A stretch of 64,000 nt of DNA from Planctomycetota bacterium. Lineage in GTDB: Bacteria > Planctomycetota > Phycisphaerae > WQYP01. The translations under genes and the position numbers were made by a program. The stretch is taken from NCBI GenBank assembly GCA_021805985.1, contig JAJZDN010000002.1, positions 80,885-144,884 of the forward strand. Reading direction: 5' to 3'. The notes beneath the pieces are model-generated. The model saw nothing but the letters and a program-made list of their open reading frames with translations, searched no databases and was not told the origin of the DNA. This document shows, in pieces, positions 29,565-64,000 of this stretch; the first letter of the stretch is position 1, and each line of letters starts with the position of its first letter.

Positions 29565-29794
29565 GAGCACCGGATGATTAATCCGGTGGTTGATCCAGTG
29601 CCGCCGGGGCGGACGGGGTTACGGGTTACAGGTTACGGGTTACAGAGGAGTTTAGGAGTTAGGAGTTAGAAGTTTCTGGAAGAGTCGCCGCTCTCCTATT
29701 CTGCCCGGCAACGGTAAACCTGCCCTGTAACCTGTCCCCCGTAACCCGTAACCTCGGCCCGCAGGACAACCACCGGGTTATCACCACGGTGCTC
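29565..29794. mobile_element. TIR-bounded interspersed repeat, copy A, containing a heptamer-repeat hairpin cassette
   Basis: Left GAGCACCGGATGATTAATCCGGTGGTT (29565-29591) vs right AACCACCGGGTTATCACCACGGTGCTC (29768-29794), imperfect inverted repeat; internal GTTACGG/GTTACAG array 29618-29645 and complementary array 29725-29752. Confidence 0.72.
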
Positions 29795-33176: not shown

Positions 33177-33227
33177 GGGCACTGGAATTCCGGCACGCGG
33201 TATGCGAATCAGAATAGACGAAAAAAA

Positions 33228-33303
33228 CCGCCGATTTCGCGGATGACGCGGATAAACAAGGGGCTTCCGGCCTTCGAGGCCTTCATACGCATGTTACACA
33301 GCG
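33228..33303. repeat. Interspersed repeat (CGCGGAT family), copy 1
   Basis: CCGCCGATTTCGCGGATGACGCGGATAAACAAGGGGCTTCCGGCCTTC...TTACACAGCG; matches 40785-40861. Confidence 0.7.
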
Positions 33304-33354
33304 CTGTTTCGGGAGTGGAACGGGGACGTGGTTGGGGAACGGACTGAAAAAAAA

Positions 33355-33400
33355 CCGCGGATTTCGCGGATTTCGCGGATAACGCGGATAAATACCGGGC
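33355..33400. repeat. CGCGGAT-family repeat, shorter copy with period-9 tandem
   Basis: CCGCGGATTTCGCGGATTTCGCGGATAACGCGGATAAATACCGGGC. Confidence 0.6.
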
Positions 33401-33735: not shown

Positions 33736-36700
33736 ATGCCTGCGAGAGCTTCTGTTCGGGTAACCGTATTAACGTCCTGCGTTGCGGCGTGCCTGATGGC
33801 ATTGCCAGTGGCGGCTTCCACGTATACTGCTACGTGGGTCGGCGGAAGTGGCGGTTGGAGTAACCCGGCAAATTGGAGCTATCTTCCCGGCACACCCTCG
33901 CCGGCCACCTTTCCCGATAACGGCAATGATGGACTCAATTACGTGGTCCTGATCACGACCGCTCCGACGGCTGTGCTGGATGTATCAACGTCGATAGGTG
34001 CGTTATTTATCGGACGAAATGGAACTCTGTCCACCGCCTCGGGTGGAGCACCGATATTGAATGTCGGCCCGGGTGCATTCACAAACAACGGAAACATCAA
34101 CATTATTAATAATTCCAGTTTGACGACGGGAGGAACACTTAGTCAAAACGCGGGAACGATTAACATCGGCAGTAGCGCCGCCGTGTCCACCAACACCAGC
34201 ACATTGATTGCCAATGCCAATCTCACTTTCTCGGGAAACGGCACTGTGTCTCTGGCAGACAGTAATAGCAGCATAAATGGTAACGGTTTTGCGGTAAATG
34301 CGAACAGCGGCACTACCATTTCCGGTACCGGCACGCTGACCGGCATCAGCACGTTGACCAACTCCGGCATTATTGACGCTGATGTAGCCGGCGGCACGCT
34401 GGAAATTGATGGCGGCGCTGCGGTCAATAATCAAACGCTCGAAGCCACCAACGGCGGTGCATTGACAATTCTTGGCGGCACTGTGACCGGCAGCGGGACA
34501 CTTCAAGCCACCGGTGGCGGCACGCTTACCCTGACCAATACGACGGTAAGCAGCAGTGCCAGCAGCACCAATCAGATAATTCTCGACGGCAGCAGCCATC
34601 TGGTGCTAAGCGGAGCCACGCTCAATGGAGTTAATCTAGGCGCTAATGCCGGCAGCCTGATTACTGTGGCCGCCGGCGCTGCCAGCCTGATCAATGATAC
34701 CGGCAGCAGTTTTCCGGTATTTGATATCAGCACGATGGACATTGCGGCTGCCGCAACACTAAACATTGAGGGCCAAATCGGCAATCTCGGCGGCAACGGC
34801 GTGATCAACGTGGGCGACAACACCGGCTCGGCCACGCTGGCGCTGGCGGGTGTAACAAATTTGAGCACCTCAACGGTGCTCAACGGGGCCAGCGTCATTC
34901 AGGGCAACGGTTATGCACTGACAGTCGGAGGGATTTCCGGTACCGGCACACTAAAGGGCATCAGCACCTTGACCAACGACGGCACTATCAACGCCAATGT
35001 GTCCGGCGGCACGCTGGAAATTGATGGTGCCACCGTGATCAACAACCAGACGCTTCGAGCCACAAACGGTGGTACCCTGGCGTTGACTAATACGACAGTG
35101 GGCAGCAGCAGTACCATCAACACCAACCAGATATCGCTCGATGGCAGCAGCAGCCTGCTGCTTAGCGGAGCCACGCTCAATGGAGTTAATCTTGGGGCTA
35201 ATGCCGGCAGCCTGATTACTGTGGCCGCCGGCGCTGCCAGCCTGATCAATGATACCGGCAGCAGTTTTCCGGTATTTGATATCAGCACGATGGACATTGC
35301 GGCTGCCGCAACACTAAACATTGAGGGCCAAATCGGCAATCTCGGCGGCAACGGCGTGATCAACGTGGGCGACAACACCGGCTCGGCCACGCTGGCGCTG
35401 GCGGGTGTAACAAATTTGAGCACCTCAACGGTGCTCAACGGGGCCAGCGTCATTCAGGGCAACGGTTATGCACTGACAGTCGGAGGGATTTCCGGTACCG
35501 GCACACTAAAGGGCATCAGCACCTTGACCAACGACGGCACTATCAACGCCAATGTGTCCGGCGGCACGCTGGAAATTGATGGTGCCACCGTGGTTGATAA
35601 CCAGATTCTCGAAGCCAGCAACGGTGGCACGCTTACCCTGACCAATACGACGGTAAGCAGCAGTGCCAGCAGCACCAATCAGATAACTCTCGACGGCAGC
35701 AGCCATCTGGTGCTTAGCGGAGCCACGCTAAACGGAGCTAATCTAAATGCCAACGTCGGCAGCGTGATTACTGTGGCCGCCGGTGCCGCCAGTTTGATCA
35801 ATAATGCTGGTACCGGTTTTCCTATATTTGGGATCAGCACGATGAACATTGCGGCTGCCGCAACACTAAATATTGAAGGCCAAATCGGCAACGGCGGAGG
35901 CAATGGTGTGATCAATGTGGGTGACAACACCGGCCCGGCCACGCTGGCGCTGGCGGGTGTAGCAAATTTGGGCACCGCAACGGTGCTCAACGGGGCCAGT
36001 GTCATTCAGGGCAATGGTTATGCTCTGACCGTTGGAGGCACCATTTCCGGTACCGGCACGCTGGAGGGCGTCAGCACCCTGACCAACGACGGCACTATCA
36101 ACGCCGATGTAGCCGGCGGCACGCTGGAAATTGACGGCGGCACGGTGGTCAACAATCGGACGCTCGAAGCCACCAACGGCGGCACGCTTACCTTGACCAA
36201 TACGACGGTAGGCAGCAGTGGCGGCAGCATCAATCAGATAATTCTCGACGGCAGCAGCAGCCTGGTGCTTAGCGGAGCCACGCTCAATGGAGTTAATCTA
36301 AATGCCTCCACCGGCGGCGTGATTACTGTGGCCGCGGGCATTGCCAGCATGATCAATGATACTGGCACCGGTTTTCCGATATTTGCGATCAGCACGATGA
36401 ACATTACGGCTGCAGCAACATTAAACATTGAAGGTCAAATCGGCAGCGGCGGTATCAACGGTGTGATCAATGCGGGCGACAGTACCGGCTCGGCAACCCT
36501 GGCGCTGGCGGGCGCAGCAGATTTGGGTGTCCAAACGGTATTCAACGGGGCCAGCGATCTTCAGGGCAATGGTTACTCTCTGACAATCGGAAGTGCCATT
36601 TCCGGGGCGGGCACGCTGAAGGATATCAGCACCTTGACCAACGACGGTGTTATCGATGGTGATGTGACGGGCGGGACGCTGGGAATTGGCAGCACGAACT

Positions 36701-37956
36701 TAGTCAACAATGATATCCTCGAAGCCACCAACGGCGGCACACTGGAAATTGACGGCACCACCGTGGTTGGTAAAGGAACACTCGAGGCCATCAACGGCAG
36801 TATGCTGGCGTTGATCAATACGACGGTCAATAGCAGCAATGCCTATAATCAGTTGTCTCTCGATGGCAGCAGCAGCTTGGTGCTCAGCGGCACCACGCTC
36901 AATGGAGTTGATCTAAATGCCTACGCTGGTAGCGTGATTACTGTGGCTGCCGGCGCTGCCAGCCTGATCAATAATGCCGGTACCACCAGTGTGCTATTTA
37001 CTATAAGCACGATGAAGATTGCCCATGCCGCGACATTAAATATTGAAGGTTTCATCGGTAGCAATGGTGGCAACTCCGCGATCAATGTGGGCGACAGCAC
37101 CGGCTCGGCAACGCTGGCGCTGGCGGGCGCAGCAGATTTGACCATCCAAACAGTACTCAACGGGGCCAGCATTCTTCAGGGCAACGGTTACGCACTGACA
37201 GATGGGGGCGCCATTTCCGGGACCGGCTCACTAAAGGGCATAAGTACCCTGACCAATGACGGCACTATCAATGCCGATGTAGCCGGCGGCACGCTGGAAA
37301 TTGACGGCACCACTTTGGTCAATCACCAGATCCTCGAAGCCACCAATGGCGGTACTCTGGCATTAACCAATACTACCGTTACCGGCGGCACTATATATCT
37401 CACTGCCGGCACCACATTAATGTTGACCGGGGCGACGGTGGACAGCAGTTTGGATCCGCAAGTCGGCAGCACCATAGATGTCGCCGCAGGTACGGCCAGT
37501 AAAATCGCCGTCGGCTTTTTTCCGATCACGGGAAATGTGGAAATAGCCAGCGGCGGCCAATTAAATATCGTCCCGGTGGTCACAAGTTCCCCCACCAACA
37601 CAACCATGGTTTTTCCCTCCGGCAGCGCGTTGGATGTTCAACTTGGTTCCAAGGGTACCAGCGGCCTGCTGAGCGTCGATGGCAACCTGGAACTGAACTT
37701 CGGCTCAGCACTGTCGCTATCACAACTCGCCGGCAGCACGTTCACTACGTCCTATGACATTATCAATTACACTGGTGCCTTGTACGGCAAATTCACGGAC
37801 GTTACCCCCGGCTACGTGCTGGACTACAGCAGCCATCCCGGCGAAATTCTTGTCACCGCCGTGCCGGAACCGGAGGCCTTGGCGCTGTTTGCGTTGGGGT
37901 TGGCGAGTTTGGGGCTGTGTCGGCGCAAGAATGCGAAGCGAAACGTCGCGGCGTGA
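33736..37956 (+). CDS. Large exported repeat (beta-helix-like) PEP-CTERM protein
   Basis: 1406 aa; repeated units LSGATLNGVNLGANAGSLITVAAGAASLIND...STLTNDGTINA.V.GGTLEIDG; C-terminus VPEPEALALFALGLASLGLCRRKNAKR. Confidence 0.88.
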   Translation: MPARASVRVTVLTSCVAACLMALPVAASTYTATWVGGSGGWSNPANWSYLPGTPSPATFPDNGNDGLNYVVLITTAPTAVLDVSTSIGALFIGRNGTLSTASGGAPILNVGPGAFTNNGNINIINNSSLTTGGTLSQNAGTINIGSSAAVSTNTSTLIANANLTFSGNGTVSLADSNSSINGNGFAVNANSGTTISGTGTLTGISTLTNSGIIDADVAGGTLEIDGGAAVNNQTLEATNGGALTILGGTVTGSGTLQATGGGTLTLTNTTVSSSASSTNQIILDGSSHLVLSGATLNGVNLGANAGSLITVAAGAASLINDTGSSFPVFDISTMDIAAAATLNIEGQIGNLGGNGVINVGDNTGSATLALAGVTNLSTSTVLNGASVIQGNGYALTVGGISGTGTLKGISTLTNDGTINANVSGGTLEIDGATVINNQTLRATNGGTLALTNTTVGSSSTINTNQISLDGSSSLLLSGATLNGVNLGANAGSLITVAAGAASLINDTGSSFPVFDISTMDIAAAATLNIEGQIGNLGGNGVINVGDNTGSATLALAGVTNLSTSTVLNGASVIQGNGYALTVGGISGTGTLKGISTLTNDGTINANVSGGTLEIDGATVVDNQILEASNGGTLTLTNTTVSSSASSTNQITLDGSSHLVLSGATLNGANLNANVGSVITVAAGAASLINNAGTGFPIFGISTMNIAAAATLNIEGQIGNGGGNGVINVGDNTGPATLALAGVANLGTATVLNGASVIQGNGYALTVGGTISGTGTLEGVSTLTNDGTINADVAGGTLEIDGGTVVNNRTLEATNGGTLTLTNTTVGSSGGSINQIILDGSSSLVLSGATLNGVNLNASTGGVITVAAGIASMINDTGTGFPIFAISTMNITAAATLNIEGQIGSGGINGVINAGDSTGSATLALAGAADLGVQTVFNGASDLQGNGYSLTIGSAISGAGTLKDISTLTNDGVIDGDVTGGTLGIGSTNLVNNDILEATNGGTLEIDGTTVVGKGTLEAINGSMLALINTTVNSSNAYNQLSLDGSSSLVLSGTTLNGVDLNAYAGSVITVAAGAASLINNAGTTSVLFTISTMKIAHAATLNIEGFIGSNGGNSAINVGDSTGSATLALAGAADLTIQTVLNGASILQGNGYALTDGGAISGTGSLKGISTLTNDGTINADVAGGTLEIDGTTLVNHQILEATNGGTLALTNTTVTGGTIYLTAGTTLMLTGATVDSSLDPQVGSTIDVAAGTASKIAVGFFPITGNVEIASGGQLNIVPVVTSSPTNTTMVFPSGSALDVQLGSKGTSGLLSVDGNLELNFGSALSLSQLAGSTFTTSYDIINYTGALYGKFTDVTPGYVLDYSSHPGEILVTAVPEPEALALFALGLASLGLCRRKNAKRNVAA
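34608..35592. repeat. Near-identical direct repeat within the PEP-CTERM gene, 555-bp period
   Basis: ~430-bp copies 34608-35037 and 35163-35592 differ at only a few bases; offset exactly 555 bp (185 codons). Confidence 0.85.
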
Positions 37957-40647: not shown

Positions 40648-40784
40648 ACCGGCCGGCAAAGTGATTTTGCTGGGAGAGGTCTATCTCCGGCTTTATAAAA
40701 TTGTCAGGTTCCGGTTGGGGAATGCAGCGATGATGCGTAAAAGTTGATCTGCCAGGGCTGCGCCGAAGATTGAATGGAAACAGA

Positions 40785-40861
40785 CCGCGGATTTCGCGGA
40801 TGACGCGGATAAACAAGGGGCCTCCGGCCTTCCGGGCGTTCGTACGCAGGGTACACGGTGC
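40785..40861. repeat. Interspersed repeat (CGCGGAT family), copy 2
   Basis: CCGCGGATTTCGCGGATGACGCGGATAAACAAGGGGCCTCCGGCCTTCCGGGCGTTCGTACGCAGGGTACACGGTG. Confidence 0.7.
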
Positions 40862-62697: not shown

Positions 62698-63216
62698 TCA
62701 AACTGAATTTTCCAGACTTTTAATCTGGTCCCGCAATTTTGCGGCTTTTTCATACGATTCCATCTTTAATGCCTTGGCCAGTTCACTTTGCAGGCGTTTT
62801 AATTCTGTACGCCGCAATTGGACCGCATCGGGTTCAACCGGCTGTTCTATCGGTCTGCGGCTACGGCGCGGCGGTGTTTTTCCCGTATGATGTTTGGATC
62901 CCTGCTGGGCTTTTTCAATCACGGCGCTAAGCAACTTTACGAAAATGTCGTAATCTTTCTCGCACCCCAGCAGGCCAGTGTCCTTGAATTCCTGCCAACT
63001 CATGCCGCAATCTGCACAATGCGGAGAACTGCCCAGCACCAGTTGACTGCTGGCTGCCACAAATTCATTGAGTATTTCATTTAACGGCAGATGTTCTTGC
63101 GGGCTGTATCCCGCGGCGATGGCGCACTGTTCGCATAAATCCAGCGCAACAACAGATCCGTTGCTTATTTCCTTGATGTGTACCGTCGCCGGTTTATTGC
63201 ATCGATTGCACATCAT
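62698..63216 (-). CDS. mcsA: McsA-like zinc-binding/UVR-motif activator protein
   Basis: CNRCNKPATVHIKEI...LCEQCA, CADCGMSWQEFKDTGLLGC, C-terminal UVR motif LQSELAKALKMESYEKAAKLRDQIKSLE; upstream of mcsB. Confidence 0.88.
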   Translation of the reverse strand: MMCNRCNKPATVHIKEISNGSVVALDLCEQCAIAAGYSPQEHLPLNEILNEFVAASSQLVLGSSPHCADCGMSWQEFKDTGLLGCEKDYDIFVKLLSAVIEKAQQGSKHHTGKTPPRRSRRPIEQPVEPDAVQLRRTELKRLQSELAKALKMESYEKAAKLRDQIKSLENSV

Positions 63217-63499
63217 ACCGCATTACCGTCCCAAAAAATGTCTCTGCCGCGAATCATCTCGCGACAGCCTGCAATCCCACAACTGATCCTGCGTACTTGG
63301 GCAAACCCCAATCGTGCCTTCCACAGCCACCACAATATTAGGTGGCTCCGTGCTGCAATTCAAGCGGGTTTCAGCGGTTTTGGTCATGGCACCAATAATT
63401 CCAATAAGTATACCCCCCGCAGGGCGGCGTGCTTTTTGCCCCCTGCGGCGCGGCTCCAATACCATCCTCACGTGCGCCGTCGTCGCGCCGCCAGGCGCC

Positions 63500-63570
63500 A
63501 AGCACCGGATGACAATCCGGTGGTTGATCCAATGCCACCAACCAACCACCGGGTTATCACCACGGTGCTC
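63500..63570. mobile_element. TIR-bounded interspersed repeat, copy B (minimal, no hairpin cassette)
   Basis: AGCACCGGATGACAATCCGGTGGTT ... AACCACCGGGTTATCACCACGGTGCTC with only an 18-bp spacer. Confidence 0.72.
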
Positions 63571-63694
63571 CATGACGCCCCGCACCGCGCTGCAATAACG
63601 CAACGCGATTCGCCGCGGCGATAGCGCAATACGATGCGATGCACTCCGATGCGATAACGCAACGCGATTCGCGAACCGCGTTGCAGTCCGCCGG

Positions 63695-63906
63695 GAGCAC
63701 CGGATGATAATCCGGTGGTTGATCCAATGCCACGAACCAACCACCGGGTTGGACGAGGAGTTAGGAGTTAGAAGTTAGAAGCTAGAAGACGGCGCGAGCT
63801 GGCAGGTTTATCCTGCCGGGAAAAATGGTAAAGCCGCAGCGCTTCCAGAAAATTCTAACTCCTAACTCCTAACTTCTAGCTCCTCCTCCCAGTCACCACG
63901 GTGCTC
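63695..63906. mobile_element. TIR-bounded interspersed repeat, copy C, right TIR split by a hairpin cassette
   Basis: Left GAGCACCGGATGATAATCCGGTGGTT 63695-63720; right TIR halves AACCACCGGGTT (63739-63750) and TCACCACGGTGCTC (63893-63906) separated by 142 bp carrying AGTTAGR (63759-63788) and complementary YCTAACT (63854-63881) heptamer arrays. Confidence 0.75.
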
Positions 63907-64000
63907 CATGACGCCACGCGCCGGGCTGCCAAAAATCACGCCGTCGCAACCTGGCGATTACTTGGACAGGCTACGGGTGCCATTATGCTGCAGAAGCAGC

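Follow-up and report, generated by a model that had tools for sequence, protein, structure and literature searches.

Heptamer-armed hairpin cassettes nested at two preferred points of a small hairpin repeat in a Phycisphaerae genome

The window analysed here, a stretch of 64,000 nucleotides from a Phycisphaerae (Planctomycetota) genome, ends where its contig (C5) ends, and 95 bp before that point lies an interrupted copy of a hairpin repeat of 69-70 bp, referred to here as E1. The neighbourhood holds an mcsA/mcsB-like gene pair, and the mcsA-like gene (62698-63216, minus strand), which adjoins the repeat block, served as the flank for orthologue comparison. The block itself (63408-63977) is derived from a larger 275-bp MITE, of which it is a decayed example: its right terminal repeat (63954-63973) has two mismatches and its left end is truncated. 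Within it, an E1 copy without interruption (63501-63569, plus strand; nhmmer match to E1 positions 1-69) lies 195 bp upstream of the interrupted one, termed copy C, and has one A in place of the insert.

Copy C, on the plus strand, begins with a left segment (63696-63750; nhmmer match to positions 1-55) that reads AGCACCGG...CCACCGGGTT and comprises the left arm, the loop and the inner right arm of E1. It is followed by a non-coding cassette of 142 bp (63751-63892), GGACGAG...CTCCTCCTCCCAG (also written GGACGAG...CCTCCTCCCAG), which is missing in empty E1 copies, and then by the outer right arm, positions 57-69 (TCACCACGGTGCT, 63893-63905), identified by repeat comparison within the window. 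In the cassette, four GTTAG-type heptamers per side form an inverted repeat (GAGTTAG GAGTTAG AAGTTAG AAGCTAG at 63758-63785; TTCTAAC TCCTAAC TCCTAAC TTCTAGC at 63853-63880) with a core between them (GGCAGGTTTATCCTGCCGGG...CAGCGCTTCC, 63801-63846). On re-reading, the letters and coordinates given by the original prediction for a right terminal inverted repeat split by a 142-bp insert proved exact, and the heptamer arms that it described at both insert ends are those located here. Exact inverted repeats within the insert reach 18 nt, whereas those in 300 letter-shuffled versions did not exceed 10 nt, and the whole interrupted element folds as a single strand with z = -7.65 relative to dinucleotide shuffles. 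The break separates the inner E1 stem from the outer one at the inner stem's foot, so that the two E1 stems are predicted to be still able to form, as is the hairpin of the insert itself.

A second interrupted copy, copy A (29566-29793, plus strand), is broken after position 39. Its left segment (29566-29605) and its right segment (positions 41-69; 29765-29793), both detected with nhmmer, enclose a cassette (29606-29764) that has GTTAC-type heptamers outside, GTTAG-type heptamers and a reversed core inside (core at 29678-29724, minus strand), and is missing in two relatives (G007 and G003). The cores of copies A and C were predicted to match in reverse orientation, and they do so over 59 nt with 83% complementarity; related cores are found at different E1 points, the apical loop in copy A and the inner-stem foot in copy C.

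The retrieved stretches of the source genome hold at least 48 E1 copies of full length, along with many that are partial; the counts of E1 and of the core come from searches together with retrieved genome stretches, and strict full copies numbered 40 in the first set. E1 occurs as single copies and also in arrays with a period near 91 or 150 bp. Among relatives (ZJ5.bin40, clean5707 and YP3.bin105 being those named in the search), it is present in every member of the genus but one, the exception being an incomplete genome; it is weaker in other genera of the same family and absent in the searched genomes from other families of the class Phycisphaerae. A Burkholderiales match (L059) was rejected as a chance 22-mer in a GC-rich, apparently coding stretch where the rest of E1 is missing. 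Neither E1 nor the cassette core matched the viral contigs searched, and no Rfam family matched at its gathering score. Covariation within E1 was not above that of shuffles (28 double changes, with a shuffle mean of 20.7 and a maximum of 30); the hairpin sequence is conserved, yet its covariation gives no evidence that pairing is under selection.

E1 often lies inside the larger MITE, whose ends, GAGCCTGTCCGAGTAATNGC (also given as GAGCCTGTCCGAGTAAT), gave 102 matches, compared with two for a reversed-pattern control. The MITE occurs in a 275-bp form without E1 and in a form of about 366 bp with E1, flanked by CTAG-like sites, and one 366-bp form is cleanly missing from G007. With terminal inverted repeats, many copies and clean insertion polymorphism, the 275-bp element around E1 is a MITE. 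A recent-looking 275-bp family with near-identical GAGCCTGTCCGAGTAATNGC ends was seen on contigs C70, C88, C87, C116 and C195 (L190-L193, L118), and forms of 43-52 bp consist of little beyond the two ends. No transposase was found for the 275-bp family; on contig C126, the 1.6 kb that separate two MITE ends hold a PEP-CTERM-like gene and not a transposase.

Left-ended partial E1 copies in the source genome stop at two points: 17 of 28 at positions 38-40, the apical loop of the predicted single-strand fold, and 10 of 28 at position 55, the foot of the inner stem, although not all of the 28 are independent events. Inserts after position 39 start mostly with GGGGCGGACGGGGTTAC, and those after position 55 mostly with GGACGAG or GGGCGAG and then a heptamer of one type or another (GAGTTAG, GTTACAG, ATTTCAG). 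For each fill point, the junction sequences are identical across loci and species. The heptamer arms of the cassettes are imperfectly inverted. Position-39 inserts are flanked by CCGCC...CCGC(C/T/A), which could be a 5-bp target duplication; junction comparison gave no clear target duplication for position-55 inserts. On a separate, repeat-rich contig (C133; L011), left halves of E1 take turns with heptamer cassettes in head-to-tail order, and the right halves are missing. Nine-base repeats of the type CGCGGATNA occur in the window (33206-33391 and 40772-40861) and also edge some E1 inserts (L018, L023), while a short palindrome, AAAAAAGGTGTCAGGTACCTTTTTT, lies beside E1 copies in three species (L108:4712-4775; L143:3190-3254; L181 near 3050).

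The cassette core is found at about 33 places in the source genome, frequently outside or far from E1, flanked by assorted heptamer repeats; a search for the core alone, which the original prediction had proposed as a check, located it without E1 on contigs C34, C87 and C158 and at the left end of C5. Among relatives, the core is almost entirely limited to the genus. Candidate orthologues of the E1-free cassette on C158 were only 67-76% identical and are probably paralogues; no orthologue was found. Cassette sizes range from about 115 to 205 bp, and those at position 55 vary by whole heptamers (142, 135 and 128 bp). In a related G003 cassette, the left arm has a single heptamer unit and the right arm has two. 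At C116, the source genome and G006 have a common fill point and outer GTTAC heptamers, while the inner payload differs.

Orthologous sites in relatives were then compared. The copy A locus, filled in the source genome, is an empty full E1 in G007 and a shrunken E1 without cassette in G003. At C114:2372, also filled in the source genome, the E1 of G007 is empty, and the site in G003 and in G006 holds a short hairpin that lacks the cassette. The C74 site is filled in the source genome, where it is a clean 204-bp insertion relative to a zero-length gap; it is empty in G007, and five other species lack E1 there. Nucleotide identity of mcsA to the source genome is 90.8% in G003, 90.6% in G006 and 83.7% in G007. 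Because G003 and G006, which are nearer than the outgroup G007, also lack the cassette, the cassettes are taken as gains, and gain in the source lineage is the simplest reading of these alignments. At C114:5600, the source genome is filled at position 55, G006 has an empty E1 and G003 has no cassette, while the G007 copy holds another heptamer cassette, near position 43 and with other ends; this locus shows that a single orthologous E1 gained cassettes on two separate occasions. At the site of copy C itself, the relatives compared have no E1 and G007 keeps a remnant of an outer-MITE end, the gains being shown at other loci (copy A, C114). Across these loci, the comparisons show acquisition of heptamer cassettes by E1 copies, repeatedly and at preferred points.

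The reading that we favour, with a little more confidence than doubt, is that these are nested non-coding mobile repeats in which cassettes enter E1 as units, after species divergence, at two preferred points. A resident E1, often inside a MITE, would act as host, and the heptamer-armed hairpin cassette would be added after the species split, either in the apical loop (after position 39, as in copy A) or at the inner-stem foot (after position 55, as in copy C). Either a trans-acting enzyme or strand switching at the hairpin, coupled to replication, would probably help the cassette to enter as a separate unit, and the heptamer arrays may allow exchange of inner payloads. No transposase linked to the cassettes was found.

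Ectopic gene conversion would explain the same sites differently: homologous recombination, using the E1 arms, would copy inserts from a few founder filled E1 elements into empty ones, with no present self-movement of the cassette. We regard this as possible, if somewhat doubtful; it stays a serious rival because the junctions are the same at all loci and common to species, and a single arm position out of 55 distinguishes the filled copy at C114:2372 from that at C114:5600. Against it, the E1 arms are merely 13-55 nt long, the G007 cassette near position 43 has another point and other ends, and the core is present outside E1. Moreover, the left arm of the filled copy at C114:238, of a type that occurs also in empty E1 copies of the source genome, is identical to that of the empty G007 copy at the corresponding position and differs from those of two other filled copies at 4-5 sites. 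On balance, the arm sequences lean slightly towards insertion over conversion. Of the cassette mobility originally predicted from the two insertion points, what stands is gain at E1 copies whose counterparts in congeners are empty, filling of two positions of one orthologous E1 in two species and the presence of the core alone elsewhere; direct transposition does not follow from these, since conversion fits the same junctions.

A bolder reading, in which E1 is a structural landing pad whose folded hairpin has two unpaired points that take unrelated heptamer-armed cassettes site-specifically, with the heptamer arrays serving as adaptors for payload swaps, seems unlikely to us. An ancestral filled element that underwent repeated precise losses, its cassette without recent movement, is improbable: hairpins can be deleted during replication and some E1 copies in relatives are shrunken, but at three loci the cassette is missing in the nearer species compared as well as in the outgroup G007, and the ancestor at C114:5600 would need two cassettes, each lost separately. 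The alignments of this last locus, with two positions in two species, contradict the single ancestral cassette position that was named at the outset as the case that would refute mobility. The least probable explanation is a false joining of two repeats in the assembly, suggested by the nearby contig end, since the block is flanked on either side by sequence collinear with a single G007 locus, and its junctions are seen again at other loci and in the assemblies of other species.

Insertion of cassettes into E1 had been tentatively linked to a RAYT-like gene. The source genome has seven Y1_Tnp matches, three of them RAYT-like and below the NCBIfam cut-off, and no E1, MITE or cassette lies within about 1.5 kb of the RAYT-like genes; a driver of this kind is not supported. 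The tag before E1 is GTAG in part of the copies and GGGAG, CGAG or GATAG in others. With no adjoining RAYT gene and no constant GTAG or CGTC end tag, E1 is not a REPIN or GTAG-REP. It resembles those RAYT-associated repeats (PMC3116915, PMC3733652) in being an intergenic hairpin repeat found singly and in tandem arrays, which REPINs also form (PMC3116915), with GTAG before some copies, but differs in its distance from RAYT-like genes and its inconstant GTAG.

In the literature searched, no paper describes these repeats or heptamers in this bacterial group. Elhai et al. 2008, whose repeats PMC3116915 cites as SDR, reportedly described small dispersed repeats (SDRs) and heptamer repeats in filamentous cyanobacteria. 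SDRs are like E1 and its cassettes in being very small and non-coding, present or absent at orthologous sites and tied to heptamer tandem repeats; they differ in sequence and phylum, and E1 has two fixed fill points and cassettes of about 115-205 bp. Small palindromic mobile repeats with internal segments (Correia/NEMIS) or dyad-symmetry targets (YPAL) are already known (PMC2229807). YPAL/RU-2 of Yersinia, likened to E1 by description, is a palindromic repeat with empty and filled sites whose targets span or adjoin dyad symmetry, but it makes target duplications of 3-26 bp, of which E1 position 55 has none clear (PMC2229807). Correia/NEMIS of Neisseria is a MITE in two lengths, the longer with an extra internal segment (PMC2229807); unlike it, E1 takes several different inserts at two points, and the core also occurs elsewhere in the genome. 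Fungal-mitochondrial double-hairpin elements (Paquin et al. 2000, cited in PMC7218506) are likewise present or absent between relatives but are organellar.

Compared with known repeats, the unusual part is the layered nesting, the two fill points and the payload exchange. Descriptions of small non-coding repeats in bacteria usually treat one family at a time; in the present case the nesting order, from MITE to hairpin to heptamer cassette to core, can be polarised at orthologous sites in several species, offering a natural system for asking how gene-less repeats move and whether hairpins attract insertion. Two further repeats were observed: an insertion of about 275-280 bp with ends AGTGCTCTGTCAC...GTGACAGAGCACT that is present or absent between species (L063:5843-6118; L025 9513-9793), and, in the window at 34318-37388, a unit of about 555-615 bp in six tandem copies.
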